Origin: Polytrichum commune
Lineage: Eukaryota; Streptophyta; Polytrichopsida; Polytrichales; Polytrichaceae
Reading direction: 5' to 3'
Assembly (NCBI GenBank): GCA_950295325.1
Contig: OX485804.1
Span: 46,686,001-46,750,000 of the forward strand
DNA length: 64,000 bases
How positions within the stretch are numbered: position 1 is the stretch's first letter; each line of letters opens with the position of its first letter. This document shows positions 3,544 through 44,872 of the stretch, one piece after another. The position numbers were made by a program, and so were the translations under genes. The notes under the pieces are model-generated. The model had not been told where the DNA came from, ran no database searches, and saw only the letters and a program-made list of their open reading frames with translations.

Positions 3544-8738
<5,195 letters not shown>

Positions 8739-9135
8739 CGCCACCAAACCCTTTAACCCCCTTTCCCCAAACCCTCCCTCCCTTTCTCCTCCTTCTCCTC
8801 CTCCTCCTCCTCCTCCTCTTCCTCCTTTTCCTCCTTTTCCTCCTGTCAACTCAAAAACTCAAAAACCAAACGCACTCCACCACCTCGATCTCTCCTAAAT
8901 TACTCTCAACCCAGATTCCCCAGCCACCAAGCAATCAATCAATCAATCAATCAATCAATCTCATGACGCCCTCCAGAGAGAAATTGGAAGGGAATTGCAC
9001 CCGTGCGTCTGGATCGTTCAAGTTAGCCTCCCACGTAACTTACTTGATTTTTCAAGTGAGGATGATCACATGTAACTTCAATGTTAACTCTAAGACATCT
9101 ATCTATCTATCGATGGATCGATCGATCGATCTTCA
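8739..9135 (-). promoter_or_regulatory. CIPK 5' leader/proximal promoter rich in microsatellites
   Basis: Upstream of the CIPK start the minus strand is a GGA/GAA-rich tract (8760-8845 on the plus strand as CCT/CTT), then an AATC tetranucleotide array (about 8932-8960), then ATCT/GATC tetranucleotides (about 9098-9132). No TATA box is placed with confidence. GA-rich leaders are common in plant genes. The transcription start cannot be fixed from sequence. Confidence 0.4.
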
Positions 9136-18019: not shown

Positions 18020-21000
18020 ATGGACAAGCAGCTGGAAGGTTGCTTGGCTTCGCTGCGGGACGCAGCGGAGACTGTGCGGAGTCATGGAGATTACATCGAC
18101 CTTGCGCCCTATGTGAACGATTTCGCTGAACTCTGCAAGGACCTGGTGGCGGACGAGCATGTGTCTTTCGCCATTGCGATCGTGTTCGATGAGGACACCG
18201 GAATTTTCAGCATCTTGGAATCCTTGCTGCACGGGCGGGACAAGGCTGTGGTGAAAGCGCGGGAGTTGTGTTGGAGTTTCCTTTCGTCTTTCGTCAAGAA
18301 GATCGGTCCACGAGCACTTCCGTATGCTCCGTTGTTGAAGGTATCATGTGCACAATGCCTGATTGAGTGTGGTGTCAAATATTACTCGAGCTCGTGCAGA
18401 GGTTTTGAATAATGTGTGTGTGTGTGTGTGTGTGTGTATGTGGGCAGAGTTTTGTGTATGTTGGCAGAGTTTAGCAATTCCGCATGTGTTCAAAGACATT
18501 AATTTATTGTTGAATTCGTATATTAGAGAATTCTTATATTAGAGAATTGGGATGCTGATGATCTGATCGTGGAAGTAAGAATACGTTAGAATGATCCACA
18601 GTGGGAAGATTCTGTCCGCAGACGTGGTTTGCCATGCAGTGAATTTCCAGTAGTAGCATCATGTGTTCATTATAGCATCCACAATTAGGATGTAGGGAGA
18701 AAGGATGCGTTGTGAAATTTTATGATATTATTGAATTTGTCCTGTGAGCTGTGATGATTACCGAGGGAGCCAGAGTTTTCATGTCGCATATGTCCTCTAG
18801 AACATCTGGGTTCAGGGTTCAGGGTTATGTAGACATTCATCAGCACACGGGCACTTTTGTGAATTGGTGGCAAATTTCTGATGTGCAGGAAAAGTGTCTG
18901 AAGTATTTTCGGAGGGATGAAGCTAAATCTGTGCAAGCAGCAGCTTTGACACCCCTTATTGTCTTGTTGGAGTCAAACATGGCACTTATGAAGCCTGTGA
19001 ATTTTTCAGTGGATTGGGGTGTTGGCAGCATGCTGATGGTTGAGTTTCGGAAGGCCAAGACAAATGGCACATGTACTTGCAGCATCTCTGCCTCCCTGCA
19101 TTTCAGAACTGCATAAAGGAACCTTTGTAATATATATAATTATAGACACGTCATTGTGTATGTTTGAATTTAGCTGTGCACACGTATTGGTTTGGTTTGG
19201 CAATGGATGTGAATGCATGGCGTGAGGGGATATTTTGGTCAACATGGTTCACTAGCATAGGAAGTAGCATAATGAACTGTGTATTTTTGGAAGTCCGTCT
19301 TTTGGTGTGTGGCCAACAACAATAGTATGTAATGTCATCATTCTGAGCATATCTTTAGAGATTTGAGATGATTGAGTATTCTTTTTTGTGTGCAATTCAC
19401 AGTGAAAAGCCACATCATGCAGCTACTTGGGTACCTGGTGGAGTACTTTAAATTGATATTCAACGAGGACAACGTGCTAGCCATCTTGAAACTTTGTTTG
19501 GATACACTTGAAGAGCAGCTACAGCTACAGCAACCTGTACATGTTCTAATGGCAGGGGCTATCAAATGTCTCGATTCTATCCTCACATGGTTTGATCCCT
19601 CTCTTCCAGCCGGAGGTATGGTGTGGCATGTTGAGTTATACACCAAAGCATTTATTCTGGATGGCTATTGCTTGGTTCTATCTATAATCAGGGTTATCGC
19701 CCTGTTGTACACGTCAGTTGCTCTCTCTGTCAAGTAGTGAGCAAATGGGTCACATGGTTCATCACAAGTCATTTAGCAACACAAGGTAAATACTGAATAC
19801 ATATTAACGTCAACCATGGTTACCTATCAAATTCATATGAAGAATCTATCGTTCACATGTAGAAAGTAAGATTTTTTGAGACCTCAAAGTCGCATTTGAG
19901 CAACTACGTTGCACAATTCTAGTTCTTGTAAGGTGACTTTTGCATACTTTTACATCCTTACTGGCATGGCTCCACTTACTTTTCCACCTTAGGATCAGAA
20001 TCTTAAATCTCATAAAATACAGGTAACGTGATGCTCTTTAAAATATCCAACCCATTTCATTGCAGGTTCTGTAGACAATGCGAAACGAGCATACATGTAT
20101 ATTGAGCAGGTGTTATGGCCGCGTGAGGATCTGAAACGTTATGAAGGGCTCAAAGGTATGTCAGACTTCCCTTTATTTATCTAATAATCTTACCTGCGGT
20201 ACTGGAGTTGACAGAAAGCTCACTTCAAAATGCACTCATAAAACACTTGCAAAATATTATGGCTGTCTCCAAGTGGGAACTTGAATTTTGAGGACTTGTT
20301 TGGCAATGAGAGGGTATTTTTCTTTACATTTCCTGAAATATTGATAAAAGTTGGTCTGATCTTACTTTGTCTGCATAGCTTGTCTACGGCTGTTATCAAG
20401 GCATGCAGGCCTATTCAGCATGCGGCTTCTGGAAGAGGGATTAAGAAATTTACATTGGCTCCAGGAATACTGGTGTTGCCTCTCTTGCCTGTCTGTTTAA
20501 TATTGTTGCTCACGTTTGAGGGTCTTCAGCTTCTAAACGGAATTAAAAACCTCTGAAGATTTTGTTCACTCAAAATAACATGACCTGATCTAGAAAGGGA
20601 CTTGAGATGGTGGTAGTGTTGTAGAATATGTAACGTACTTATCTTTCAAGGGCATGCAGTTTTTTCTGTTGAGTTTGTGTTAACTTTCTATGTCTTGGAG
20701 CAATGTCAAACATTTCCAGTGAAAGGTAGTGTCAACTTGATTAATGGATTCACAGATCACTGCAGCCGTAGGTGCATTCAATTCTTCACTGGAACATATA
20801 GTCAGAAATGGCATTGTTTTGGGCTTATTATTTCTGACAGTTGCATTCATGCTGCAGCACACACATAAATGCTGCAATACGGGATGCTGCTCTTCCAGCT
20901 TATGATCACTTCATGACGCAAGTAGGTTCTATCCAGGGTTTTACCTGTCCATTTCATTTACTTGATTGTACCTGTACCATGATTTATTTTATGGTGGAAT

Positions 21001-24000
21001 TCTCTCACCACAGAGTTGTGGTTATTGTGGAAGCCATATGATGCTCAGAAAGAAAAATTTCTGCTCAAGAATTTTCAACAAACGTTCATACACTGAACAC
21101 CTGCACATGATTCTGCAAACTGAAGTCTTCATGGCACACTTGACTCTGTCATAGTCTTTCTGTGGTACACATGTATCTGTCAGTTAACCACTTGGCTGCC
21201 CTGAAATTTTGCATGTTGAACCTTTGAATGCAAGTTGGTCTTCTGGAGAGGTCTACTCTTTATATGGATTTTCTTCTTGTGCATGGTTGCAGGTATCCAG
21301 TTCACTTGTTCTAGACAGCCGCATCAAGAATGCTCAACAACTGTATAAGGTTTGTGTGAAATTATAAATTTGGTGGACTGGAACTCTTTACTAATAAAGG
21401 GGGAAGGTGATATTAACTATCATATCTGTTGTGGTTTCCTGAAATGAACTCTGTGCAAGTAACAATCATATCTTAATGGGTGGGTTAATTTCAGGGCTTT
21501 GCAAGAGATACATTGGGGGTTCTGGATACAAAGGGTGCTGAACCAAAGAGAGTCTCTCTTGCCATTCGTGCAGTTGGAAAGATGGCTGCACCTATTGTAA
21601 AATTTTCAGGGAAAGGTAGTCTAAAGGAAGCGTTCCATCGCCTTGAACCATTTGGTGTCTCATCAAGGTGCTTTACTTTTCTTTAATCCTATGTTTCTCC
21701 TATTGATCAATAATTATCAACAGCTATCTATATATTATATCTTGTTTCTAGAGAGAAACGATTCTCATATGTTGGTACTCATGTACTAGAGTATAGTATG
21801 TGCATTCTAGCATGATCATTAGTCATTGGTATTAACATGTCATAAGTTCTTGCAGAGTAGGAGAAGGACGAGATGAATCACTAGGTTATGCAGTCACCCT
21901 TGTAGGCGCTTTTGCAGATATGGTCATTCACCTAGATGATGTTGAAGACTTTATGGTTTCTTTCATTGCACAGGTTTGTTGCTTGCATTGCCTGAGTACT
22001 CCCATATGCAGCAGTATATCCTTTACTGTGTATTAAAATACATTTGATAGTATCTTCTCTCCCTGAGACAATGCGTCTAGATTGTCCTTTGTAAGTTATG
22101 TAGAGATAACCTGAGATGTTAACACCAATTATAATCCCCCACTAAATTTCATCAAACTGACAATCAAGTATACTTATGTTCTTTGTTGCAAATTATCGAG
22201 TACTAGTTCCAATGTATTGTATAATTGTGCGTACAATATTTTCCTACTGTAGATACATACATCCAGATATTGACCTGCTTTTATATTTTGTGTTTGAACA
22301 GCTTGTAAGCTTTGGTACAAAATCCCGAAATTTAGTTATTTGTAATACGAAATGGGCAAACAAAAAACTTGAAGACTTGCAATTGGAGTTTGTGCATGTG
22401 CAAAGGGTGGATGCAAATTTCATGTGTATAAAGGCCTTCTTGTGACAACATTTCTTCTGGGATCTCTAGTTTTGAGATTTGAAGTTTATAAGTGTCCATT
22501 GTATCATTTGTCAAAGAACTTACTTGTGGTCCCAAGGGTCACAGATGCCTAATAAGACTTCTTGCCAAGTTACGAGAAGAAGTATGATGAGGAAATTGAG
22601 TGGTTCACAAGGGGTTCACTGTTGATGGCATCGTATGTTAACTTGCTTAAGATTGGCAGTGATCTTCAGCCTTTTACGAAGTTGCTAGGTTGTAAAATTA
22701 TCTGACAGATCCCTTAGTCACAGTTCCTCACAAAACTCCGCAGCTCCTACAAGGCAGGCTGTGACTTCCCTCTTTCTGAACTGGAATTTCTTATGTTTGT
22801 TCAATCATGAGTTCTTTCCTGCTTTGTGAAGGTTGATAGCTTGCACTCCCACTGGTTAAATTTGATAGGTACTTATCAAATCTTGATATTTGAGTGTGTG
22901 AATTTGTGGAAGTAGATAAGTATATTTGACCGTCCAAATGGTGTCTTTTTATGACCAGCTACTTGGTGTCAGTTGAGTGACTCACAATGACTTATATACA
23001 TGATTCACAGGTCACAGGAAATATTTTTTATCAGTTTCCTCAACTTTTCCCAAAGCAAAAGCAGGCTGTATACTTAAGTCTGCACAGCTTATTCAAAGCA
23101 CTATACTCAAAGGGGGCAGTTTTTACCTTATTTTTGAACAACATCGGTGAGTGGTTGTACCATAAGCAATCATGTCATCAAACATGTTAGATTCAAGAGA
23201 TACAAGATGTTTTCATATTATGCATTGTCATGAGTGCACCCTTATTCAGAAACATTTCAAGTGGGACACTGGAATGTCTTTTAGTCAAGCTTGTGTAGTG
23301 TCTATATGACATGGTTTGTTTGATGTTGACCAAGAGGGTTCAACGGGGGTTCAACGATTACATGAGGTCGCGCATTTGAGAACTGGCACTGATATGGAAG
23401 AGCACCATTCACTGTGTATAAACCTTTGAGGAGCATATGTCCTTCAATAAATGGAGAGGATCACAACTCTAAATGTATATTGTTCTTTGTTGCAAATTAT
23501 TACCATATTTTCTGATGAGATAATACAGCAAGACTAACAGGATGGTTTTTGTGACAAATATGATCTTCTGTCTACAAAAGAACAATTGGTTGAAAAATTT
23601 CTATAAGAATGAAACAACTTGTTCTACAAAGTTCAATGTACACTTCTAGGTCGCTTCTTAGTGAAGAGTGTGAATTAACTTGCACTTATCTCTTCTGCAG
23701 CAGACTTAAGAGGTGAGTGTTGCTTTTGCAGTGTGGTCCTCACTGGAGAGGGCGATGGAGCCAGTGGATGAGACACTTGAAGATGGATCGACCCATCTGT
23801 GGCGCCACTATGTTGAACTCTGGTCACGCCTTTTGGATATGGCATCTGATCAGACACTGCAAATTATATCTGACTTAGATGAGGGGGAGAATTTTGAAGA
23901 ACTTGTTGCCTCTGATGTGGGTGATGTTGGCATCAGTGGCAGTAAATTAAAGGAGTCGATGTTTGATGCTATCATGCACTGCGTGCTAAAGGCCATGACT

Positions 24001-27000
24001 GAGCTCAACTTGAAATATCGTGTTAAATTGTCACATGCAACCACAAATCCAGGTTGATGGTGTTTCTTTAATTCAGGCAGTTGTCATAGTGATATTGAGA
24101 AAATGTACATCATTATGTTTGTCTTCTTGCACATCTTGTGGTATTATTATCACATTGTCAATTTCTTGATGTGGACTACTGGACATAGCTGCTCACTGCA
24201 TCCTAAATGGGCATTGAGTAGACTCAATTTCTGTAGTCCAACATGCTTTGATAAGATTGCAAGAGAAGGTCATGTTGCTCTGTCAGTGATTTATTGAATT
24301 GTACTTTGAACTCTCTGACTTGAGGCTATTGACAATGTTGAAATGGTTAAGGGATTCACCATTTGATGTATTGCAACATGCCAAAGCACCTCTGTTCTAA
24401 TTTCATCAGATGAATCATCTGTGTTCATGGTGCTTGTTTTGATCAAGAGGAGGTTCCTACCGTAGCAATTTCTGAGCATTATTTCTTGTTTGATGGTACA
24501 GAAGAGGGCGATAACAGCCCAAATGAGCCAGAAGCTGAAATGGAAATCATTGAACCCCTGGACATGCTGCACATGCGAAAGTATCTCAACATGGTTAGTT
24601 TTCAAGTTAACTAATTAAATTTCAATGACTTGATTGCCATCTTCTCATGATGTAGTTTAAATATGATGTTATGGTGTGAAGGAAATGAAAGGCAACAAGG
24701 ATATTGGAAATGTTTTGAGAAGAGCTACAATAATTATTTACATCATTATTATGCAATATGAACATCATAAAAGAGCACCTTTGGAATCTCCTTTTCAATT
24801 ATAAATAGGTGGACTAATTGCACATTTGGTTGGTCGAACATACTGGAACATTGTACCAATTGTTTGTACATGTCTCAAAGGACTAGCTCTATTCTAGGAC
24901 CCGTTTGGGACCAGGTATTTCTTAACTTGCAGCATGTTGCAGGTGACTATATAGTCTAACAAGCCATCAAGACTTACTGGAATTGCCTAATAGAAAAATG
25001 TGGGACTTTTCTTCAAAACATTTTTCTTCATGTATGAAATAGTGTTGTCAGTTATATACAGTATATGATGAACTCACCAAGTAGGATAGTTCTTTGAAGG
25101 ACGTGTTGTTTGAAATGACATTTCCTAATGGGGACTAGTTTGAAAGCATTTGAATTGATATAATATTTATTGTAATCCTTGGTGAACTTGCGAACTCCTG
25201 ACAATTTGCTCATTGATTGCCTCCAGTCAGGTAAAATTGACGTAGATATGAATTGCGTTTATGTGCATGTTGCAACAGGTGCAGTTTGTGCAAGTACTAC
25301 TTTCTGGGTAAGTTGACAATCACCAACCACATGGCAAAACTTGAAGTTAGAACATTTGAGGTTGAAAATTTCTCCCAACTTGAACCATGCAGTCCAAAAG
25401 CAAGCAACAGGAATTTGGGTACTGACTTTATGGCTCAAAACCTGAGCAGGCTGTATACATGCAGCTATGTTCTCTTTGAAATATGATTTTGAAACTGTAT
25501 TATATTCTCCTGACGACATGATTTGATTTTCTACTGGGTCCAAAGACCGTCCTTGATGCAATGGTTGGTACATACATCACACTTTACAGTCGAATGAATT
25601 ATGCTGCAGAAACTTGGGTTGATGTATGTTATGTTGTGTATTCTTGTATTTGATAATGATTGTGGTGGTGGTAATGCGGTGCATGGCAGGTCGTATGCAC
25701 AGCTCTTTCAGAAATGGACTTACACTTTTGGTCGCAAAATCATTGAGCTCTCAAGTAGGTACCCGCTGATTAGTGGGTTTTACAAACTGCTGGCAGTCAC
25801 CATAACAACTGCAGATTCTGTTGGATTTTTCTCATTCTCAGAGGCAACAACTCAGTTCTCACATGGGACTGAGGCATCTGTAGCTCATGCACATGACAAA
25901 GCTCAAACTGTGCATGTAAGACGTCTGAATGTTCTCTTGTAGTGATTGCTGTTGAGAGTGCATTGATTTGCATCGGTTTGTTATTGGTGTGCCTTCAGCA
26001 GTGCTGTTGCTGTGAGGTTGAAGAATAGCAGGTGCTTCTGGTCCTGAATATATTCGAATAACTCTTATACAGCACTGAACTTTGTACTCTTGGTCCTTGT
26101 TCAGTTGCCCTTGCTTTCTCCAGAATTTGAACCTTCTTATCTCCCCTTCAGTGACCCAGGTGGTTTCTAGATTAATTACGGCTTTAAATCGATCCTCTAT
26201 TTCACTGTGGATCTATGTCTCCTTATCTTACAACCTCTACAGATGACAAACTTGTACCGTGAAGAAGCATGTAATGTTTTGTTGGATTTTGTCCAATGAT
26301 TAACATGTCTGTAATTGGTGATCTCAGACAGGAGGAACGGTAGACTTGGAAGAAAATCGAAGACTTTGCAAAGAATTATTTGGCAAATACTTGCAGGAAG
26401 TTTTAGTGGCTAGTCGGAGGTACACGCTTGAGCTACTGGCTGCATGCCTTCACCTTTGTCTATCAGCACCACCAATTTTGCTTGGGATTGGCGGGATTGT
26501 TCCACCCCTAAGGAATGCCTTGAAGATTGGTCTTCGATATCCTTTACAATGATAGACTGTGAAGTGCATTTGGTGCATATTTCCCTTCGTGAAGTGCATG
26601 CTTTTTCACTTAGAAATCTCAGTTTATATGTAATTACTGTTTAATATTGTTGAATCCATTTTAAGCAATTTCATGCTGGTTTGTTCGATCAGTAGATTGC
26701 CACAAATCGAACAACATCTCCTTTTGTCTTGTATCCATGCTTAAAGTGTGGAACATAGCATATGCATACAATAGAAAGTGGACAATGATGTTTCTCATTG
26801 TCATCCTTGACAAAAATAATTGTGCACTTATCTTCCTTTGGCAGCAGTGGCCATGGATGCACTGGAGAGATGGCAAATAGATTCCCCTGAAAAGCTTCAA
26901 CAGTATCTTCCTGAGATCGTTCCTTCCCTGAATGAATATCTTGTTGATTTTGAGACTATGGAGTTTTTAGAACCAGAATTTGGGGTTGATCAAACAGGTG

Positions 27001-30000
27001 CAAGCACATCCTCGGCCCATGGTACTACTGGCGTCTCCCGATCACAGTTGGCCCGTATCAAACAAGCGCGTGCTAAAGAAGCACAGGTGATTCTTATGAT
27101 CTTCACTTTGATCTTCACTTTGTATTGTCCAGATCTGGTCAATTGGTGGTGAACTCTTCTTGGTTGTGTTTGATAGGCAGGGTACCATCTCAAAAGACTC
27201 AATTGTGCATTAGCATGTTCTGGGCCAGGCATGCCTATATACTAATGGATGCTGACTACAAATTTTTTTTAAGCACTCGAATTTCTTGATTTGATAGGCC
27301 TCAATAATATTTTGTTTATACATGATGGCTGCAGTAACAGTAATTTCTTAAGACACAAACAATTGGTCAAATGGGCGGGATCTTGTAATAGAGATACCAC
27401 AAAGGGTAATCTGTTCTCACGTAGTAGATGAATATAAGTTGGGAGGAAGCAGTTTTCACAATGTCATATCAGATCAGGCTCAGTGGTTGGCAGTTTTTCT
27501 GGATTTTGATCCTTGAATACTTAGACATGGTTTCTGATCAAATTGCTTGAGGTTTGTAAAAATCCTACTAATTGTATCAATATGTAAATAGTGAACATGT
27601 GCAATATTTTTTTCTTCAATTTGCCTTGGCATATGAAGTTCCATATGTTTTACTGAGTGATGTTGCCATGTGGCTTTCAGCCATGTAACCTGATCCTGGT
27701 GTCTGTGTATGGTGCACACAGCCTGGGCCCTTTGAGATAATTCAAGTGCGGGTGCAAAAGTTTCTAGGGCGCATTGGTGGATATTCCCATTTGCTTGTGG
27801 GTGATGTCAATCTGCTGCAGGTGGCTGGTACTGGAGGTCTGGCATGGGATCCAGTTTCTCGTGTCAAATTTACCCTTCCTTTCCGGGAGGAGAAGCCCGA
27901 CATTTGGCTAGGTGATATTTTCTTATCCTTTTCTTTCAAAGACAGAGGCTTATTGAAGTATTTGTGTACCTTCCACAATCAGGACAGGCAGGTTTTTAAG
28001 ATGGTTTTAGTATGTAACAGTAGACAGAGGATCATTGAAAAGTAAGTGTGGCTTTCTTCTCATCTCAGACTCACTACTCTCACGAATGGTGGAGCTTTCA
28101 CTCTCCTCAAGTGACAGGAGTGTAAAAGTAACAGCTAGTGAGCTGTTACAGGCAGTTTGTTTGCTCATGCTTGGAAGTGCTGCCAAGGGTCCAATTCGTC
28201 GACGGGGTGAAGAGGCTCATTCAGTAGGTTGACTTGGCACCCTTTGAATAATGGTTTCCTTCAGGCATATGAAATGCACACACTGGAACTGAATATGTGT
28301 TATTGAGTTCCTTTTCTTATAATGCAGGATATTGCAGGACAATGCTGGATAATGCTGCCTCTCAATCTCTTTTCATTTGTCATGAACCTTTGGAAGTTTG
28401 TCAGCTGGATACTGTGAAGCTTACACCATTTGTTTGTGTTGAGTATAGGTTCACTTTGATAAGCTTTACAAACGTTTATTTCCAGCTGTGTTACGCCTGT
28501 CCACAGATGTTGAATTGGTAAGCCTTCCTTGTCCATGACACAATCACATACTTCACAAGTAATCAAATTTTATTGATGAAGTCTAGACATTAATCTTGTT
28601 ATGTTTGTACTACTGTTGTTGGGATCATGAATTTCTTGTATGGAATGGTAGAGATTGTATTTCCTAGTCTTTAAGTAGGTTTTTAATGCTAATTATACTG
28701 TTACAACCTCGCTCCAAATGTAGAACTAGTCTATTGCAACAACATATAAAAGAAAAACGGCCTATGCATGTGCAGGTGACCCGACAGCTGTTTACGGAGT
28801 TTGTGAAGCAGCTCATACATTGGTTCACAAGTAATCAGCAAAAGGAGAACCCAGAGACCATGGCTCTCCTTGATGCAATATTAGATGGTCTTGTTGATCC
28901 TGAGAATGGATCCCTCAGGTCCTTTTATCGACCTCAACTTTTTCATGGACTGCACAGAGAGCTCACAGCATTAATAAGTCTAAATCATTATTTCTCTGTC
29001 GTGTACTTGGGTTTCTATAATGTTGTAGTCTCTTCCACTTAACTGGAGGTATATGTCGAGGGCCACTGTCCCAGTGCATATTCTAAATACTCTACAATAT
29101 GATCTACTTATGTTGTTATTGCAGGCTGAGTGAGTGTTTCCCTGTCTCCATGGGTTCCATTTGCTGAGTCACATAGGTTCTTAAGGAAATGTCCTCTCTT
29201 ATTTATCCTTATCCCTAGCGCTCTGAACTCATGATATTTAGGAAGTAGTGCCTGGTGCTTCTTCTGTGCATATTGAAGTTGTTCCAAAATTCAAATGCTC
29301 TTTCAATTCTGAAAAGGAGTTGCATGCAATGCAATTGGTGCTTTTTTGACTGAAGAATTTTGTTCTCAAGCCCACTCTCCCTTTCTTGCCATGCAGGGAG
29401 TTCAGTGCTGATTGTTTTGCTGAGTTTATGCGGTGGTCAGTGCGGCATGCACCACCTGAGGTTAGCTGATTTCATACAGCTCACTTTGAGCATCATATGG
29501 GATCTGGGATGACCATAGCCCAGTAATTGAATGCAGATGTCTGTGGGCCTTAACTGATAATGCTAAATAGCTGAAATTCTCAGAGCAGATTGTATGTTTT
29601 ATTAGACACTGCTATTTAATATAATACACTGCGTGGTTTGTACAATATGTGTCTCATTTGCAATTTATAGGTTTGGAACTATCTCTTCTCCATGAACAAA
29701 ATTGCTTCAAAATGTAAAGTTCTCTGACAACAGGTGTGCGTGCATCTGTTCTTCCAGAACATTATTGAGCTCACTGTAATTGTGTGTGAAGGCATTACAA
29801 TCTGAACAATACAACCACTTTCAAAATGAAAGCTGTTCTTCTTAATGTGAAGCATATCCAAGAATGCGCTGAAGATTTTACATGTGGTGAAAATTGCAGG
29901 TGGACAACTTTGTGAATGTTACCTCAATGCTTCGACGGGTGTACAATAGAATGGACCATCCAAATCCTTACCACCGGTTGGGTGCAGCCATGGCAGCTCA

Positions 30001-33000: not shown

Positions 33001-36000
33001 GCTAGCGAGACAGTCAAAGGTTTGCGAGCTGCGCAAAAGGCTCAAAGAATTAGAGCTGGGGTTGGAAGTTCTCAAGTGACAGCAAGTCTCTCCTCTCAGT
33101 ATATGATTAGTGCAAGCCTCAGTCAGGAGCCTGCAGTGATTGATAGCTTTGTTGGTAGGCAAAGAAGGTCACCAGTAGGTTCTACAAGTCTAGGTGCTGG
33201 GTTGTTACTTGACGAGGAAGATTCATCAAATACCATGGATTTGGATACCATGACTCAAGGTTTGTGCTTTTAACTTTTGTACAGTATGCCCAACATGGCT
33301 GTGTGAATGATGTTGAATAGCTAATAACATTAGGATAGGTGCATTGTCTTTTACATTGGATCCAGGGAGGCTGAAGAGGTTCGTGTGTGCATTGCAGGAC
33401 CTAAAGAGGAAACTGTAGAATTCGTTGCACTTGACCAAGACTATTTTGACCAGCACCCCTGCATGGGTGTTGTATTGCGGGTGATTGAACACTTGCATTC
33501 CAAATTTGGGGAAGCACAACGAGGCTCATCAAAGATGCCAGATTGGATGCAGTCCCTTCATGCTTCACTTGAGAACGCAGGTACGTCATTTCATTTGCAC
33601 TGAAATTCTTAAAACCATCAAAAGTGTAATAATGTTAGACAGTCACAAGATTATCTGTAGCTGTCAATCTTATAATTGCGACACTACAGAAAATATTCTA
33701 ATGTCATACTTGCATTGGCCTTGGCCACTTGCTAGTTCATGAGCACAGATGTGGCCAAATGATGTGAGAGTATTGCTTTGGAGTCAGGGTTCTGACACCA
33801 TCGTAGAACTTGCAGCTCATGAGGTTCTTTAGGGCCCTAGATGTGTATGTTTCAGATGTTTGAAAAGGGATTTGGGGTATATGAGCCTTAGATCGAAAAA
33901 AATCTGTGGAATCAAAGTTGACTTGAGGTCTGAGTGTTTTAACAAGGGGAGATCTTTCTGTGCAGGCACACACATCAATGTGCGCCTCTTTCTTGCAAAG
34001 GTGGTCACAAGAGCACGGAAGGTTTTTGCCCCATATGCCATAGAATGGTTCCGACCATATGTGCAAGCTATTCTGATTGACCCCATGAAGTCAGGGGGTT
34101 TTGCTTTTCATTACATGCTTCGAGATATATGTATTACTTTACTTGAGTGGAACCTGCTCACTGCACCAGATGAGCGGCTTGCCACAAAGTTTGTTCAACA
34201 CTTGATTAGAGTAGCTCCTCATGGGTCAAACCAAGTCTTGCGTGCTAATGTAGACATTATAAGACTTTTTCTTGAAAGGTGGAAAAATGAGATTTGTCTG
34301 GAGAGAAAAATTCTGCTTCAGTACTTAATTGCTGGAGGTCAACGCCCAGAGATGAATGATAGAAATATCAAAATGCAGCGGTCAGTAGGTTTGCAGTTGT
34401 TGGGAGCAATTGTTGCATCGGGATACCCATTATATGACCCTATAACTGATATATCGACCTCAGAAGAGCATATGTGTGGAGCTTTGCTCAACAACCTAAC
34501 TGTCAAAACTAAGGAGGTCTATGAGGCAGCAGCTGAGCTGCTAGGAATTGTCACAAGAACACGACGTGAAGCAGCTGGAATTATTGACGAGGAGATTCTG
34601 GAGACAAGATTGCACAAAGCCCTCAAGCAGTTGTACCGTGATGCAGAGTATGAGAGATTTCTCAATATCCTCAACAAGGTTACTGTACGAGATCCAAAGT
34701 TTCTCCAGGGTTACAGTGCTATGGTTGTTGATCAGCTACCACGCCTTTTTGGCATATACAAATCAAATGCCTTGGACACACTTCTGCGGTATCCCAATGC
34801 AGAACCAAACCTCTTCAATCAGATCTCACGGTTTCTTCCCAAGCTGTTGACACATCGAGATGAGATTGCACAGCTGAAAACGTTGAAGCTTCTTGCAGAG
34901 CTTCTAAAGGAAGTTAGTAACGAAAAAATATCTGAAAGTGTCCTTCCAGTTCTATGTCAAACATTTGGTGGACATGAGAGTGTCGATTGCAGACGAGAGT
35001 ATTATGAGATCCTTATGTATCTCCATAAAACCAAGGGTATGGACAAGGAACCTCTAGTCATACGCTCATTACTCCTGGGCTTGTGTGACATCTCAGATAT
35101 GGTGAGGGAGACTTTGCAGAACTTCTGGCACTCTCTTCTCTCTCAGGTAAATTGTCCTGCAAAGGATTTCCCATGTTCTATGTTGTGCTTTGAAATTTTT
35201 TACAGAGGTTTGTTTCACATGTTTCTCAATATGTATGATTTTAGTTCCTCCAGTTACATCTCTTCAGATTGGATAACTGTCTCCTACAAAGAAGGTGGTT
35301 GATTTGTAGAGACATTCTTGGAGGCTAATTTGTTTTGCATTTGTGTCGCATGCTTGCAATGGTTGTAAATCAATTGAGTCTCCTCTTTTCTCTAGAACTT
35401 GTTCAAGAGTTAGGGTATTTTACATCACATTTATGGTGTGTTTGTTTTCAGGATGTACAACAACGATTTGTTCAACTTGTGAATCAGATCTATGATCCAG
35501 CACTAGAAGAGCATTGGGCACAAATATCTAATGTTCTTCTGCTAAAGGTAACATGCTATGCTTATCTATATTTTACACAACTTTAGAAAAGCAATCATAC
35601 ATGTAGTCGGCCAGGAATAGCCCTTGGTTTCTAACATCTTCAAACACTGAAATTGAGTCAGGTGTGTAAAGTTGGTTGCAATTGCTTGGATGTAATTCAT
35701 TTTGTCTATTCACAAAAGTGCGGGATCCTGGTAATTGCTTCAGGGTCAAGGCCTTTGCAAATAAATTGAGAATAAGCATCTCTTTTCTCTCTATCTATTC
35801 TTGTCTCTTTGAATAATCCTGACCACATCCTAGATGTGTTACGCTGTAAAGCCATGTTGTTCAGGGGCCTAAATTGAACAACAAATACACCTCTTCAGGA
35901 AAACATGTGCAAAGGTTATCTTGAGTTTGTTGTTCTCTAATGTCTGATGTCCTTGGCCCTTCTCTATCTTTTAATTTCAATGACGGATTTGGCTGCATGC

Positions 36001-39000
36001 TGTTGTTGAAGAGCACAAGAGCCTTACCCAGATTCACTAAGGTTTGCTGCAAGTTGTGTACATGTCACTGGTTGCTTCACAATTGAACGGGCCCTAATTG
36101 AACCTACTGTTTATCAATATAAGTGGTTGTAGTTGTAAGTCAATTTATAAGGATGATTCTAGGGAGTAATGCTTCAAACCTTCCAATAATGAGATTGTTT
36201 CTTTGCAATTGTTCAGTTGTGTGAGGACTCAGTTGATTACAGACGTCCAATTTTTACAGCGCCTCTATCAGATTGTCAGTTTCATGACTACACTATCAAC
36301 ACGTCATGGATGGGAGGGAGTCTTCCTATGACTCCTCTTTTCTCCAGTTCACAGATATTAAGCTCTCAAGCAACTCTAGATGATGATCAAGAGAAGGAAA
36401 TCATCGCCACACAACCTCGGGCAAGGATGATACGAGCAACCATGACTCCTTCACTTGCACTTACTCAAACTCAAGGAGGCACCATGGGTTCAACACAAGC
36501 TTTTAGTGGAAGTGTGCTTTTTGCAATGTCACAAAGACCAGGCACAGCTGGATACTCACAGTCTGTAGGGCAGGAAGGGGGCTCAATGAGAGACCCTGCT
36601 ACAAACTTACGGCGGCGGCTTTTAAGTTCACGTGCTGCCCAGTCACAGGTAACCCCCCGAGCTGGGAATGGAGGTCACATATGTTGTGCTTTGTAGCTGT
36701 TATATACATGTTGACTGACGTTACGTTTACCCTGTAATAGGTCTTGTCAGGAGTCTTGCAAGCAAATAGGAGACGGGAAGCCCGTGCTGCTGTTCAAGCC
36801 TTGGAGCGGGCAAACAAGGTGCATATGATGAGACAGTACCGGACTGGTAACTTTTCATACTTGGTGCTACCATCCATCTTGAGAGTTTCTAGTATTGTAT
36901 CCTACCACATCTGGTCTTACAGTAGACTTAAATGTGGTCTTAGCACACTAAGTTGCCAAGAGCTATCAACAAATGTGAGCCCACCTGATGTGTCTCGAAA
37001 ATTAACAGAGTTACAATTGGTGAAATGTTCTCAGTCCCTTTCAATTAATCCCTATGGAAAGGCATGCCAAGAAGTCTTCACCAGTCTTGTAGCGTGCCTC
37101 CACCATATGAATGATAGTGGTATTCACAACTTTATTGCAGGGCTGGTAAATATATGATGGTTGTCGTCTCAGTATAGTTGTGTCGAAATGACTTTCCTTT
37201 GCTATTATGTGATGTTTGACATTTCATTTTCAGGGTTTTCAAATCATGTGTAAGGGCTTGGGGAGAGCATTGTTTCCTTTCATAGCTGATACTCGTTTGG
37301 GAGTGCATGGCTCATCATCCTTGAAATTGTTGGAACTAAAGTAAGGGTATCTTGTTCGGTGCAGGTGAGCTTCCAGACATTGAGATAAAGCATTCAGAAA
37401 TTTTGGGTCCCCTGGGAGCTTTGGCACAAAGAGACTCAACGTTTGCAAGACTCCTACTCACAGTCCTTAGCAGTGCTGTGTATTCTCTACCATCAACAAG
37501 TCAAAACATCATCGCAGAAGTGAGATTTGGCTTTGAGGCTGCTTTTCAGCAAACACACAATGGTGTTTCTTTTGTGAGTTGTGTGGAAGCTCTGTGTCTT
37601 CAAGACCCAGGAATCTGGATTACACCAAAACTTGTGGGCACAGCCAGCCGAAAGTCAACAAATTACCACTCAGGAGTCTTGCTTCTTGAGAATCAAATAC
37701 TGAATGAGACAGTCCCAGAAGTTGAAGAGAGTGGAAATAACAAGCGACATAAAGGGAGGGGAGGACAAATCAACAGAGATGTGCGTCCATTGGAGGATGC
37801 CTGGTTAGAGCTGGCCCAACTTTACAAAGCCCTTGGTGAGGAGGACATAGTTCTTGGACTCTTTCAAATGCATGTAGCCAAGAATGAGAAGACCCACAAA
37901 GCTCTAGAGTATCAACTTGGTGGCGATGCACAACGAGCTCAAATTGTCTATGAAGAAGTTATAGACATGCATTTAGATGGTGAGCTGACTTAAATTCTAC
38001 ACTTTCTCCTTTTGTCTTCTATTTCAGTCCTTTCTAGGGGCACCTTGAGCACCACTTAGATGTTCCAATACGATGTGCAGTATTCAGGAGAAAAGATATG
38101 TGGAACTGTCCCTTAGTAGAAGTTTTTAATAACTGTTTCTGAATATTGCAACATATTATCAGTCCCTTGACCCTTTTGGGTTGTTATGGAGCAACCAAAT
38201 TTAGTATGTTATTTGCCTTGCAGTTCATGTATCTCTATGTACATTTCACTTGACAACTTCAAATTCTCTTATGTAACTTTTCAGGATTTATGGGATACTA
38301 ATTCTCTAGCGGAACGTGCTTGGGTGCAGGTGTCCTTGGTGGCACAACCATAACCAAGTCAGAGATTGATATCTGGTACAATCAGCATCTCACTTGCCTG
38401 GCAAATCTTAATAAATGGACAGATGTTCTTGCGGACATAAAAACTCAAATCACCACCGATGATGCACCAGATGAACTGGATTACAAGTGTTTATGGGAAC
38501 CAGAGAAAGAGATTTACCTTGAGCTATTTCTCAAAGGGGCAATCAAGGTGTCCACATACCATAGTGCAGTCACTGAATTTGTACAATTATGTAATGATGA
38601 CCTGCCCAAGAAAAGTCGCCTATTAAATGAATACAGCACACACTTGGCTACATTGACTGTCATCAATAGAGAATGGGACCGTGCAAGATTTGTCCTTGGC
38701 CAGTGTTACAAAGTTTTTAGGAGGAGGTGGTCTGCCTTGCACCCACTTGCTCTTGGGGCACGCCATCAGCACATACGACTGTTGCAAAAGACTTTGGAGC
38801 TGGATGAGTTTGTCAGTTTTGTTTCCAATCCTCATTGGAATGAGTTACCGAGGTTTCTTTCTTGTAGCTCCACATGCCTTTGCACCTTTGGTTCTGTTGT
38901 TGTGATCCATCGTATGACAGAAAATATATGTTCATTTCAACTTCAGGCAGGGTGTATTATCAATAGATTTGTAATTCTTGTTAGTGAGCTATTTTGATCC

Positions 39001-42000
39001 AAAAGACCATTAGATCCTTCTCCAATGACATGTAGCTACTCAGAGTATATATTCATAGTATATATAAATCTCTCTGAATGTGCTGTGTTTTTGTCACTGA
39101 TGACTTGTTCTGTAGTCTGTTGGAAGGATGGCAGAAGCGATGGCCATCCTCAGAATTTGATGATGTCGAAGCCTGGGATGATATAGCACAGAACCGCCTA
39201 CTCTTCTTCAACGAAATACAGGCAGTTATCACTCAGCAGCTCCAGAAGAATTCTTATTTTGAAGATGGAAAAAATTCTATTGTCTCTCGGCTGGATGCAC
39301 AGAGAGCTCATTTGCACCTTGAAGTTGCCAATGGCCTCATAAAGCATGGCGCTTATGATGTTTCCCAGGTAAAAGAGCCTGCCATCTCCACATGTGTTTG
39401 ATAGCAAACAATCTTCCCAGATAATAAATAATGAGGCCTGGTCCATTTGTCTCTGTTGAGACATAAGGAAAGCAAAACAGAGAGATACAGTGCATCAATC
39501 CACACAGGGGCTCAGATGGAACTTCAATTCAAGCCTCACAGCGTACACAACTTTCTTAGTGTCCAACAAAGTCATCCAGGTTACTGTTGTTCAGTATCAA
39601 CTCCAGGGTTGATCAACGAGACTTGCAGGCAACGTTTGGGAGACCATTATGTTAGCTAGTTCATTCATATGGTCATCAGATCCTTTAATTATGGACTGTG
39701 ATACTAACTTGACATATATGGCTGCTATCAAGTACTTTTTGTAGTTGATATCTGAACGGTCTCTTCATTCAATAAAGGCTTATGGTATGAAAGCACCGAA
39801 AGTTAGGTCTTGTCTGATTGTGTTCATCTTATTTGCACCAAAACAGGCATACATGAAGGAATATGATTTGCTAAAAATTGAAATCTCTGAGAAGATGAAG
39901 CGAGCCTTTGAGTTTTTCAAAGCATTGGTGAAGCTTCGGTCTTTGCAAGCTGAGCGGGTTGATTCTTCAAGCAAAAAGATTGAGATGCTTCAGCAGGTTC
40001 GTTGATTCTTCATGCAGTGCACTTCTCAGTTCGTTGATGTGCCACTTTGGAAGATGGAGACAGTTACTTTTGTCCTTTTTGATGTGCGTTGTAGAGGATT
40101 TTTCAGATGGGTAGCGGAGAGTTCTCGATTTAGGTCTATGGTAGCTGTTGGGGTTAGAAATCTTTTTTGCAGAGACCTTGATTTCAACTCTTGAAGACTT
40201 TATGACTAAGGTTCGGGAAGAACTACCGTCAGTTCTTGGACTCTATAAAATCAATTCTTAACTGAGTAGAAAACACTTATATAGTAATACGATTTTTTAT
40301 CACTTCTTGTCTCAAAAGTTTCTCGTTTAATTAAGTGTGCTAGTCATTTCACAAGTGTTTCAAATCTTGAAGCTGGTGTTTGAAGTTACAATCTGCATTA
40401 GTAAAGATGAGAAAAGAAGCAAGCCTTGACCTAGGGCTTGTGTTGCATCCAGTTGTTGGGGTATATTGAAGGCGAGAAGGACAAAGGCAACGTGCGTCCA
40501 GAGTTTATGCAAGAGTTTCAGATGGTGGAAGGTGATGTCTATGCCCAGGTTGCGAGAGCAACTCGATCACAGGCTGAGGAGGTTGGAAGTTCCCATACTG
40601 TTGGTAACTCCTTGCTGGGATCAGCATTTAAGGCATATTCAAGTGCTTTAGCACCTGCATGTACATCTGAACAAAAATCTGGAACAATAGGTATGATACA
40701 AGCTGGACCCTGCCTTCTTTTTCCCAGAGCCAGATGCTTGGTCCCTCCAAAACGAGTTATTCTATGTGTAGTAATTCTAGTCCTTTATCTGCCTATGTGT
40801 AGAACAGTGTGTTGCTCTGAAGGGTTGCTTAATTAGTCCCAACCAGCTTGCGGATCCTGAGATGCATGCTGACCCCCTGCTAAAATCTACACTATAAATA
40901 GGAGCGAACTTAAGTTTGAATCATGCACAGAATTCAACTGATTGTCTTCCTTACTTCATGTCTCTGCATTTTAATATATATTTTTGAAACAGGCAACTTT
41001 TCAGCACGAGAAGCAGCAAATGCATGCCTCAAATTTGGTCTCTTTTGTGATGAGCTATTGAAGATTTCGCAAAATATAAACTGGGAACATTCATCAGCTG
41101 GGGTTCCACCAGCATTCGAGCTCCCCCAGCTCATTGTGCGGCACATGCTGAAAGCTCTAGCACTGGACAGCACCCTGCAAGCACAGCATGCGGTGGCAAG
41201 GCTTCTCTCTCTTGTGGGACACTCTGTTCAAACACAGCAAGAGTTTGCTAGTCTTGTCGACAATGTCTCCACTTGGGTATTCGTGGCCTGGATACCTCAA
41301 ATTTTAGCCAATATGGACAAGGATGCAGGGTCTGTCCTTGTCAAGGTATTGGACTCTATAGCAAAATCCTACCCTCAAGCACTCTACTTTGCATTTCATG
41401 TAAGTCAGACTGATTTTAAGACTACAGGCCGACATCGGACAGACCATTTAAGAATTCTCTTGAGGAATCCTTTCCTTGAAGGCATGATTCGGGCACTGGA
41501 AGATCTTACTTACCCAGAACAACGTTTACGGGATGGCATCCTACAAATCATGCAACACTTCCACAGTGGTGACCGTTCCAAAGCACAGTCAATCTTTTCA
41601 GAGGTTTATCAAGACTGCCTTCATATACAGGAATTGAGAAAGCACAACCGGCAGGCTGGAGAATACAACTTGAAGTTTGCTCGTGACTGGGCACCCTTCA
41701 TTGTAAACTCCTGAACCAACCTGTTTCTGATGATCAAATTTTTCTTGATGACTTCTATGATTCTTGATTACTTTTACTGCATTGAAGATCTTCCAACAAA
41801 ATATTCTCTTGGCCTTCAATAGAACACCGAGCTATGAATTCAATTTTTGAAGCTTTACGTACTTTAGCTATATGTGACACCAACTTAGCCCCTCAAAATT
41901 TGATGGCATCCCGAATCTTCCAATTTGTCATACAATAGCAAGGCGCAGTTAAGGCTGGTATACTTTTCCCTTCAACTGGAGCCATCAGTTATTTATAAAG

Positions 42001-44872
42001 AAATTAGCTAATGTCTCCAATTGACAACGTATCCTGCACAATTATTTCACTAATACTGGTGGTGTTGGATGCCGTGCCCTAGTCCATTTATTTACAGGCT
42101 AATGTCCACAGATCAGAAGCTATGGAGAACTTACCTCAGTTCTGACAGTGGTGGCAAACATTCTTTGATAATTACTGTCAATTGTGGTGCAGACTAAAGA
42201 ACTGGGCGAGGATGGAAGCAAGCTGCAATCAGTGGATGTAAAACCTCTCTCTGTAGCTGCAGGTGGCATAGTTGAGAAACTTAGCAAGATCGAAACTCCT
42301 GTTGGTAAGATCAGCCTAAGCACATTGTCAAAGTGGTTGGCAGACTTTGATCAGGCAAAGTCACTCAACGAAGACGGTGTCACTGATCACCCCAGGAATC
42401 AAGTGGAAATTCCTGGTCAGTACAACCATTTTAACACCCGTAATTTGTCATCACATGTACAACTTGTGGGTTTTGACCAGACCCTGATATGTTTGAGATC
42501 AAAACAACGCCCTAAGATATTAACCATGCGTGGTTCTGACGAGAAAGAATACAAGTTCATTGTCAAGGGAGGAGAAGACTTGCGATTAGATCAAAGAATC
42601 GAGCAGCTGTTTGAAGTCATGAATAATGTCCTGAATCGTGATGCATCATGCTCTCAGAGGAAGCTTGCTGTGCCAACATATTCCGTGATCCCAGTTTCAA
42701 AAAGATGTGGATTACTTCAATTTGTGGACAACACGTGTATACTTGAAGATATAATCAAAGATGGCCTGTCCTCTAAAATTTCGAGCAAATTACAAGGGCA
42801 GAAGACTCTACCACCAGAGCAAATATTGCACAGTGTGAAACTAAAGTATATGGATTGGGTTCAAAGGAAAGGGGGGACTAAGAATCCAAGTGCAAATTAC
42901 TGTAATATGTACAGCAAAGTTGGATATGATGAAGTTTCTCGGATGTTGAGTTCTCTTCAAAACCAGTTACCATGGGACGCCTTACGCACAGGGTTTTCAA
43001 GGTCAGCAACACACTGTCTAACTATCCTCAATATTGCTCTCTGATCTCTTCCTTATATTTTTTGTGATCCCAAATGTAGGGATTTTTCTCCAAAGAGTTC
43101 CTTAGGTTGTTACCGTTCCCATTCTCTTTCCAATTTCTTACCTCTTTGTGGCTCTTTCTGCCTGTTCCTTCTTATCCTCTTGTCACATCAAGTCCCTGGG
43201 TCAACCTATCCTCTTAAAAGTTGAGGGTACTGAGGGGCTAGGCAATCTTTGTAGAGGACGAGCAATGGGCAATCATGCTGCTCCGATTACAACTGTTAGA
43301 AAGAGTGTACCTCTTAATTGACATAGCAGCCTGTGGGCAAAGAGACTATATGAATCTTAGTGTTGGCAAAAATCCGCATCATCCTTTTTATTTTTTGACC
43401 TTCGTGTAACATTTTCAAAAAGTGTCATTGTCCTAACAAAATTTTCATTCCCTTGCTTGGGAGGCCAGGTTGACCACAAGCGCGGAATCATATCTTGCTC
43501 TACGATCAAACTTCGCTCGGAGCCTCTCGGTGGTGAGCATCTGTGGTTATGTAGCAGGAGTTGGGGACCGGCATCTTGCCAATACACTCATTGACATGCG
43601 CTCTGGTTCACTTGTACCTATTGATTTTGGCTACAGTTTCGGAACCAACGTTCTCCTCCTTCCAGTCCCAGAACTCATCCCTTTCCGCTTGACAGCCCAA
43701 CTGACGAATTTTCTACGCCCTCTCGATGCAATTGGTCTTCTACGCAGTGACATGGTCCGCATCATGTCTGCATTGCGTAGTAATCGTGATGTGATTTCTG
43801 CTGTGATGGAGGTGTTTGTGGACGAACCTCTTCTTGACTGGAAACAGGAAGCATTAAAGTTGCAAAGAGCTCGTGGTGGAGTCCAGACAACTGCACTTGA
43901 AGAACTCGGTGCAAATGATATAGTATGTCAATTTTATCTCAGACTCTTGAAACTCAGTCCACTTACCATACTAAGTGTCTTTCTGAGATCTTTTTGTACT
44001 GTCAAAGTCCTGCTCTGTATGATGCTGCTCTCCCTTTCGGATTGCTACACACCTAAGGTATGTGGGTGTTATTTGGTTCGTTTTTCATGTTCTCCAACTT
44101 CTACCAATTAGATTTTTACAACTGAACTTGTGTTGCATAAACATCAACAAAAATGGGATTGGAAATTGGACCTCATATGATTTATGGTTATCGGAAGTGC
44201 ATGTTTGATAATTCCTTAACTGAATACATAGGTCCTCTGAATTGTGTTCACTATCGACTGTGGAGTATTTGTTAAAATATGAAGACGTAGTCCAATCTCA
44301 TTTTAACATCATGTGCTTTTATGGTGTTTGTTCTTTGACCCTCACCTGACCATACGCCTGACAAATATAGATGTTTAATTAAGGAAAGTAACTGATTAAC
44401 ACCCGCATACCTTATTAAATTGTAGAAGTAGATGATGTGAAGGTTGAAGTGGCAGGTCTGACATCAGTACCTTGCTTGATGATGAACTTCTGGTTAGGTT
44501 TTTTTTTCTTTAGACTGAGAGTTAGCAGCATCCATTCCCAATTAAAATATTGTCTTGGCATGTTAACAGGAGGGGGCAAGCCCAGAACAGCAACACGTCG
44601 AGCTGAAGGTGGAGAATGCAGAGCGCAAATTAGACCTCTGGAACCCTGCTGAGATTACTATATCTGAACTACAAGCCTCCACACATGCAAACAAGCCTTA
44701 TATTTCGGCACTGCAGCAGATTGTTCGGGGTGATCCTACTCGCAATGCTCGTGCCCGTGTTGCTGGAGAAGTCTGTGCCTCGGTTCAGGAGCAAGTTGAC
44801 TGCCTTCTAGATCAAGCCACAGACCATAACCTTCTTGGTCGTATTTTTGTAGGCTGGCAACCTTGGGTCTAA
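18020..44872 (+). CDS. PRKDC: DNA-dependent protein kinase catalytic subunit (DNA-PKcs), PIKK family, about 39 exons
   Basis: Giant PI3K-like Ser/Thr kinase that with Ku70/80 holds and processes broken DNA ends in non-homologous end joining. Nearly all exons could be joined in phase, giving about 12.17 kb of coding sequence (about 4,055 residues) plus two unresolved short stretches, close to the 4,128 residues of the human protein. Alignable landmarks run the whole length: SGFYKLL (25759), [12 protein letters not shown] (about 27870), VTRQLF..QLIHWFT (28776), [13 protein letters not shown] (28864), NVRLFLAK (33973), [12 protein letters not shown] (about 36258), [13 protein letters not shown] across the 36846/37365 junction, [16 protein letters not shown], and the FATC end [19 protein letters not shown]. 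The start ATG at 18020 is preceded by an in-frame stop at 18011 and has good context. ATR, ATM, TOR and SMG1 are ruled out by the DNA-PKcs-specific middle region and FATC end. Head-to-tail with the coiled-coil gene 1.5 kb downstream. Confidence 0.95.
18412..18438. repeat. GT dinucleotide microsatellite in DNA-PKcs intron 1
   Basis: About 12 GT units within the first intron. Confidence 0.9.
26537..26827 (+). other. U12-type AT-AC intron in DNA-PKcs
   Basis: The intron opens with ATATCCTTT directly after CTTCG and closes with AC at 26826-26827. A U12-like branch site TCCTTGAC has its branch A at 26810, 17 nt before the 3' end. No GT donor works here: the frame runs into a stop at once. Joining 26536 to 26828 restores phase and gives [18 protein letters not shown], which matches the vertebrate DNA-PKcs sequence at this place. 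Length 291 nt. Confidence 0.9.
30671..33259 (+). other. DNA-PKcs giant exon (2,589 nt), middle HEAT region ending in PQR-like linker
   Basis: A single uninterrupted exon with phase 1 at both ends, coding about 862 residues (roughly residues 1,220-2,090). The other exons are mostly 60-600 nt. The last 90 residues lose helical character and hold four SQ/TQ dipeptides (SSQ about 33070, SSQ about 33095, LSQ 33121, MTQ 33253) around the basic stretch VGRQRRSP. This sits where the vertebrate protein has its PQR autophosphorylation cluster, which is followed by an acidic segment as here ([13 protein letters not shown]). Confidence 0.9.
33398..35547 (+). other. DNA-PKcs exons coding the second HEAT arm (M-HEAT/forehead region)
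   Basis: Exons 33398-33580, 33966-35146 (1,181 nt) and 35452-35547 join in phase. They carry [61 protein letters not shown] and NFWHSLLSQ, all alignable with vertebrate DNA-PKcs just ahead of the ABCDE loop. Confidence 0.9.
36217..36846 (+). other. DNA-PKcs ABCDE-type SQ/TQ phosphorylation loop and YR..PD helix (exons 36217-36648 and 36741-36846)
   Basis: After [12 protein letters not shown] and LPMTPLF the exon codes a low-complexity loop with nine SQ or TQ dipeptides in about 115 residues, including LALTQTQ, which lines up with the human T2647 site. An arginine-rich helix follows ([14 protein letters not shown], then [16 protein letters not shown]), ending MMRQYRTG. The next exon (37365) completes [13 protein letters not shown], which fits the DNA-PKcs-specific YRPD motif as I recall it. 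Confidence 0.9.
37365..41702 (+). other. DNA-PKcs FAT domain exons
   Basis: Exons 37365-37979, 38330-38852, 39116-39368, 39847-39996, 40175-40210 (tentative, 36 nt), 40453-40690 and 40993-41702 join in phase. They encode TPR-like helices of the FAT domain: [90 protein letters not shown]. The FAT domain wraps the kinase domain in all PIKKs. Confidence 0.88.
42193..43922 (+). other. DNA-PKcs kinase domain (exons 42193-43001 and 43469-43922)
   Basis: The N-lobe exon has [31 protein letters not shown], then [18 protein letters not shown] with the ATP-binding lysine. The C-lobe exon has [13 protein letters not shown] (catalytic Asp, His and metal-binding Asn) and IDFGYSFG, followed by [12 protein letters not shown] as in other PIKKs. 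The junction splits an Arg codon (AG|G) and rejoins as [17 protein letters not shown]. All catalytic residues are present, so the kinase should be active. Leu replaces the Gln of human GGEDLRQDQR. Confidence 0.95.
44054..44414. mobile_element. MITE of 361 bp in the last intron of DNA-PKcs
   Basis: Terminal inverted repeats TAAGGTATGTGGGTGTTA and, at the right end, TAACACCCGCATACCTTA. It occupies over half of the intron 43923-44569 between the kinase C-lobe exon and the FATC exon. Related to 2431-2785. Non-coding. Confidence 0.85.
44570..44872 (+). other. DNA-PKcs last exon with FATC domain
   Basis: The exon follows a TTAACAG acceptor and codes about 100 residues. The last 35 or so are the FATC motif ending [13 protein letters not shown] and TAA at 44870-44872. 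The Trp-rich end is nearly the same as vertebrate DNA-PKcs (GWEPWM). The preceding helix ([19 protein letters not shown]) is specific to this lineage. Confidence 0.93.

Follow-up and report, generated by a model that had tools for sequence, protein, structure and literature searches.

We asked whether a 64,000-nucleotide stretch of the Polytrichum commune genome (the window) encodes an intact DNA-PKcs, and whether such a protein would serve DNA end joining in this plant. The window covers 46.69–46.75 Mb of contig C2 in a genome of 407.8 Mb assembled in 64 contigs. Seven contigs account for 406.07 of the 407.81 Mb, and n=7 is likely, a number that fits polytrichalean mosses. The genome was taken as that of a green plant because it contains at least 34 chlorophyll-binding family matches. 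A chlorophyll-binding cluster at C5:1751760–1846580 holds 14 matches of equal E-value within ~95 kb on both strands, and looks like a recent local expansion.

The exons of the DNA-PKcs gene were curated by hand from splice sites, reading frame and homology because automatic splicing was unreliable. An automatic gene finder over-split the gene into 122 exons, and stricter runs gave 49, 35 and 30 exons with exons lost; these results were replaced by the curated model. The curated model contains 40 exons and 12,366 nt, encodes 4,121 aa without an internal stop, and extends from an ATG at 18020 to the last base of the stop codon at 44872. Its 39 introns comprise 38 GT-AG introns and one AT-AC intron. 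Each exon was scored by jackknife, i.e., left out of the training of its own coding model, and introns were scored after training on the whole set of exons. In all 40 exons the assigned frame outscored the other two; the minimum exon score was -2.1, and the maximum best-frame score over the 39 introns was -2.8. Homology guided part of the choice of exons, and the model and its domain scores are therefore not wholly independent; the frame score offers the more independent test. Taken at the sequence level, an intron-rich and apparently complete DNA-PKcs gene on the forward strand is confirmed. Upstream of it, a neighbour at 7085–8858 on the reverse strand reads as a protein kinase, by eye a plant CBL-interacting (SnRK3-type) kinase, with weak Pkinase matches below the cut-off in two single frames. 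Downstream, frames at 49091–54481 on the forward strand resemble one long coiled-coil protein, and a Pfam family exceeded its cut-off in none of the five frames.

Table 1. Features of the DNA-PKcs gene, in positions of the window.
Feature	Position	Strand	Basis
DNA-PKcs gene, coding span	18020-44872	+	Curated 40-exon model; best frame in 40/40 exons
Exons 1-20	18020-18340, 18889-19072, 19403-19615, 20066-20155, 20379-20472, 20858-20921, 21293-21349, 21495-21667, 21856-21973, 23011-23146, 23732-24052, 24502-24593, 25279-25307, 25690-25915, 26105-26159, 26332-26536, 26828-27086, 27722-27911, 28069-28223, 28449-28517	+	Curated model
Exons 21-40	28776-28918, 29397-29460, 29900-30116, 30277-30489, 30671-33259, 33398-33580, 33966-35146, 35452-35547, 36217-36648, 36741-36846, 37365-37979, 38330-38852, 39116-39368, 39847-39996, 40175-40210, 40453-40690, 40993-41702, 42193-43001, 43469-43922, 44570-44872	+	Curated model
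Exons for N-terminal HEAT solenoid (DNA-PKcs_N, PF20500)	18167-27772	+	Pfam profile match
Probable U12-type AT-AC intron (intron 16)	26537-26827	+	Donor, branch-like element, domain score
Exons for CC1/2 and first part of CC3 (NUC194)	28449-33259	+	Pfam
PQR-like loop, residues 2028-2062	33064-33168	+	Three S-Q sites
Exons for end of CC3 and CC5	33966-37705	+	Pfam
ABCDE-like loop, residues 2622-2695	36343-36564	+	8 S/T-Q sites; alignment to ABCDE region
YRPD motif, intron-split	36837-37387	+	Alignment to DNA-PKcs
Exons holding FAT domain match	38330-41702	+	PF02259, 53.7 bits
Uncertain FAT-domain junction, several in-frame splice solutions	40175-40453	+	Coding and FAT scores
Exons for PI3K-like kinase domain	42193-43922	+	Pfam; motifs
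C-terminal FATC region	44789-44869	+	Pfam

The original prediction had described a full-length DNA-PKcs with its parts in phase, and the solenoid families, FAT, kinase and FATC were all recovered from the curated model. The four DNA-PKcs-specific Pfam families (DNA-PKcs_N, CC1-2, CC3/NUC194 and CC5) scored above their curated cut-offs. DNA-PKcs_N matched the spliced N-terminal part at 334 bits over profile positions 2–809 of 810, and CC1-2 matched at 238.6 bits. FAT, PI3K-like kinase and FATC were present in order. The residues that we take to be catalytic (the lysine, the GDRHxxN loop and DFG) lie in intact motifs: IVKGGEDLR from 42559, GVGDRHLAN at 43557–43583 and IDFG at 43620–43631. The expectation that these residues are kept and that no disabling mutation is present agrees with the predicted model, which is open throughout. 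The YRPD motif reads YRTGELPD at residues 2756–2763, preceded by MRQ, and fits the definition YRxGxxPD given in passages of PMC10419180 and PMC8549938.

The density of S/T-Q pairs was assessed with five window sizes (40, 60, 80, 110 and 130 residues). The whole protein contains 34 such pairs, compared with 27.2 expected by composition. Eight fall within an 80-residue window in the ABCDE loop, a count reached by 0 of 500 random placements; the maximum was matched in 3 of 500 placements for 40 residues, in 1 of 500 for 60 residues and in 0 of 500 for both 110 and 130 residues. These S/T-Q sites may be phosphorylation sites, as predicted from their sequence.

We then considered the partners that a DNA-PKcs would need. 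The Ku80 gene lies on the same chromosome (C2) at 3.22 Mb and encodes a Ku core and a Ku_PK_bind domain. Its spliced 3′ end aligned with the solved Ku80 C-terminal domain at 58.3 bits, and the alignment stopped before the tail. The predicted C-terminus ends KKEEPVDELDEMEALLEEAM. Its tail, DELDEMEALLEEAM, is acidic, contains LL and resembles, by eye, the motif DVDDLLDM, the terminal Ku80 motif that contacts the NUC194 domain according to passages of PMC8549938. Compared with that recruitment motif, the MEALLEEAM of the Polytrichum Ku80 likewise has LL followed by acidic residues after Ku_PK_bind; it differs from the motif letter for letter, the likeness being judged by eye. On C5, an exon of the Ku family looks like Ku70 by eye. 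Four XRCC4-family matches (C7:28106807, C2:68309251, C1:40559529 and C7:13459496) were all above the cut-off; they may include other superfamily members or duplicates. Four loci for SNM1-type nucleases (DRMBL) were also above the cut-off, and the one compared with PDB chains, on C7, scored 86.0 bits with Apollo and 56.0 bits with Artemis from a partial query. Pfam models of ligase IV, XLF and PAXX found no match in the genome and no control match either; having matched nothing anywhere, these searches are uninformative on absence. The gene and its Ku partners fit a working DNA-PK holoenzyme, whose activity we infer. The original prediction had read the gene as implying a DNA-PKcs branch of end joining and had pointed to Ku70/80, Artemis and XRCC4 as partners to look for. 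This reading stands circumstantially: the Ku80 domain and tail, the Ku70-like exon and the XRCC4-family matches were found, whereas the searches did not establish Artemis (its C7 candidate being nearer Apollo), XLF, PAXX or ligase IV.

The mechanism that we propose is that of the animal enzyme, and only the list of parts comes from this genome. By homology, the Ku70/Ku80 ring would bind a DNA end, and the C-terminal domain and acidic tail of Ku80 would recruit DNA-PKcs through the CC3/NUC194 region. Two DNA-PKcs kinases would span the break; by phosphorylating the S/T-Q sites of their ABCDE and PQR loops they would release the ends, to be processed and then joined by XRCC4–ligase IV. Expression of the gene, activity of the protein, its binding to Ku and its role in end joining are predictions. 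Alternatively, DNA-PKcs may be made and be active mainly elsewhere (telomere maintenance, transcription and other stress responses being examples), while Ku, XRCC4 and ligase IV carry out end joining as in flowering plants. Artemis is the main nuclease partner of DNA-PKcs in animals, and the lack of an established orthologue here would suit such a division of labour. End joining in flowering plants indeed runs without DNA-PKcs, as stated in a part of PMC10419180. However, the Polytrichum Ku80 retains the domain that binds DNA-PKcs and a tail resembling the motif; passages of PMC8549938 describe this tail as conserved in those non-flowering plants that have DNA-PKcs and as missing in flowering plants. 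We consider a role mainly outside end joining unlikely. We are highly confident in the explanation as a whole, i.e., that the locus encodes an intact green-plant DNA-PKcs orthologue that would be recruited by Ku and serve end joining.

The gene could also be a recently decaying pseudogene in which long open exons remain but the FAT domain carries a disabling frameshift near 40450. A coding-like stretch at 40386–40452 (score 4.4) is out of frame with the strongly coding stretch at 40453–40521 (score 10.5), which belongs to the exon beginning at 40453, and joining the two directly would need a frameshift. However, several GT-AG splice solutions around 40175–40453 are in frame, one of them with a good acceptor before 40453, and the absence of internal stops and the intact catalytic motifs also argue against decay. 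Four in-frame joins in this region gave FAT scores of 36.1–38.9 bits, i.e., with little difference among them. Transcripts containing all of 40386–40452 as well as the exon at 40453 would mean a frameshift; such transcripts are unlikely, and we judge decay of the gene to be very improbable. An intact DNA-PKcs remains our reading of the locus.

As FAT, kinase and FATC occur in all PIKKs, the family of the kinase was assessed by scores and a tree. Against PDB chains, the kinase and FATC region scored 331.7 bits with DNA-PKcs, compared with 157.4 for mTOR, 146.7 for ATR, 129.5 for ATM and 127.7 for SMG1, among the best 60 of 142 matches. A search of the genome for FATC gave eight matches, seven of them above the cut-off and including DNA-PKcs; the control gave one bacterial match, below the cut-off. 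The eighth match of the genome, C6:16803197, was likewise below the cut-off and was left out of the tree; epimerase-like frames were seen nearby by eye. The best PDB match served to name the ATR, ATM, TOR and SMG1 of the genome. One TRRAP-like gene had 9ynu ("non-specific serine/threonine protein kinase") as its best match, followed by TRRAP and Tra1 chains, and the second was assigned from its position in the tree. In the tree, which had 13 rows and 301 columns with one reference per family and some own-genome rows partial, the Polytrichum DNA-PKcs paired with the solved DNA-PKcs (bootstrap/SH-aLRT, 98/97). The other PIKKs of this genome (ATM, ATR, TOR, SMG1 and two TRRAP-like kinases) each grouped with their own reference; the placement with DNA-PKcs, outside these families, is as the original prediction expected. 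The two TRRAP/Tra1-like genes lie at C4:39763741 (L026) and C6:14410363 (L027), of which L026 has the clearly longer branch. In the whole-genome search, matches over the cut-off to CC3 and DNA-PKcs_N occurred at the DNA-PKcs locus only, and a DNA-PKcs_N match on C1 (E=0.19) was below the cut-off. That the locus is ATM, ATR, TOR, SMG1 or TRRAP misread as DNA-PKcs is hardly conceivable: the FAT, kinase and FATC domains are shared, but DNA-PKcs_N, CC1-2, CC3 and CC5 are present at the locus, the tree and scores set it apart, and the other PIKKs are encoded elsewhere in the genome. The sequence evidence supports the locus as a DNA-PKcs orthologue and as the sole such locus found in the genome.

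We compared the protein with human DNA-PKcs (PRKDC), represented by PDB entries 5y3r and 5w1r, which we take to be the human protein. The two are similar in length (4,121 and 4,128 aa), have N-HEAT, CC1/2, CC3, CC5, FAT, kinase and FATC in the same order with intact catalytic motifs, and can be aligned through the ABCDE loop and YRPD. Human T2609, S2612, T2638 and T2647 correspond to S, S, T and T here, with Q next at three of the four, whereas T2620 and S2624 align with D and E; S or T is present at four of the six positions. The phosphorylation loops have otherwise diverged. Domain order is the same and size is similar, as compared by description, in the plant DNA-PKcs of Physcomitrella, Sphagnum, Marchantia, Anthoceros, Selaginella, ferns and conifers (passages of Kumar 2023, PMC10419180). 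The YRPD here, with M for the tyrosine of the second YR, is one of several plant forms given in that source, and T at the T2638 position likewise agrees with it. In contrast, S-Q is found here at the S2612 position, which is called not conserved in green plants there, and the T2647 position is T here and S in most of those plants (PMC10419180, in part).

The presence of DNA-PKcs in a plant is not startling because it has already been published across non-flowering plants. In passages of PMC8803787 and PMC3532656, the sole statement on plant DNA-PKcs is that it was "not identified in plants" (2012). Passages of PMC10419180 report it in chlorophytes, charophytes, liverworts, mosses, hornworts, lycophytes, ferns and the four gymnosperm lineages and, together with those of PMC8549938, report none in flowering plants. 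PMC8549938 briefly agrees on this plant distribution and adds the Ku80 tail. The loss on the way to flowering plants that the original prediction proposed is thereby a published finding, and the novelty that it saw in the host lineage was not established. The original framing of DNA-PKcs as vertebrate-specific is therefore out of date, and the Polytrichum gene is a good further example of a known plant DNA-PKcs, not a surprise. It probably adds two details to that picture, namely a probable U12-type AT-AC intron and the S/T-Q-dense ABCDE loop.

Intron 16 is required by homology. It starts with ATATCCTTT, contains a branch-like element, TCCTTGAC, with 16 bases to the intron end, and ends with GCAC. 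Donor and branch-like element fit the U12 consensus, and the ends are those of an AT-AC intron. In the 64 kb, donor-like matches numbered 4 against 2.74 expected and branch-plus-acceptor matches numbered 4 against 1.27 expected; neither element alone is rare, and both occur at the ends of intron 16. A GT-AG solution is also in frame, but it drops the eight residues GLRYLPLA and lowers the DNA-PKcs_N score to 110.7 bits. We read the intron as AT-AC because this reading gives the better domain match (137.5 bits). U12 snRNA, the component of the minor spliceosome that was searched for, was found in the genome at 87.6 bits (gathering score, 53). Judging from these elements, intron 16 is probably a U12-type AT-AC intron. 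A narrow search of open-licence papers, as far as their text was available, found no description of a U12-type or minor intron in PRKDC; in the portions of the U12-intron literature found, Prkdc appeared only in mentions of mouse strains or SCID.

Taken further, the host, possibly of a lineage without a described DNA-PKcs, may keep the full DNA-PK recruitment module, comprising the kinase with its S/T-Q loops together with the binding domain and tail of Ku80. Splicing of the kinase transcript would then need the minor (U12) spliceosome, so that DNA-PK output could follow minor-intron splicing. We put this forward tentatively, as a possibility more doubtful than probable. If this holds, DNA-PK function in plants could be tested directly in this host. 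Passages of PMC10419180 indicate that DNA-PKcs function is known mainly from human and mouse, and that plant repair is known mostly from Arabidopsis, a flowering plant without DNA-PKcs. As a complete, chromosome-anchored gene whose Ku80 partner is encoded by the same 408 Mb genome, this plant DNA-PKcs is a clean target for the study of DNA-PK outside animals, and the same target bears on what changed once flowering plants lost DNA-PKcs.
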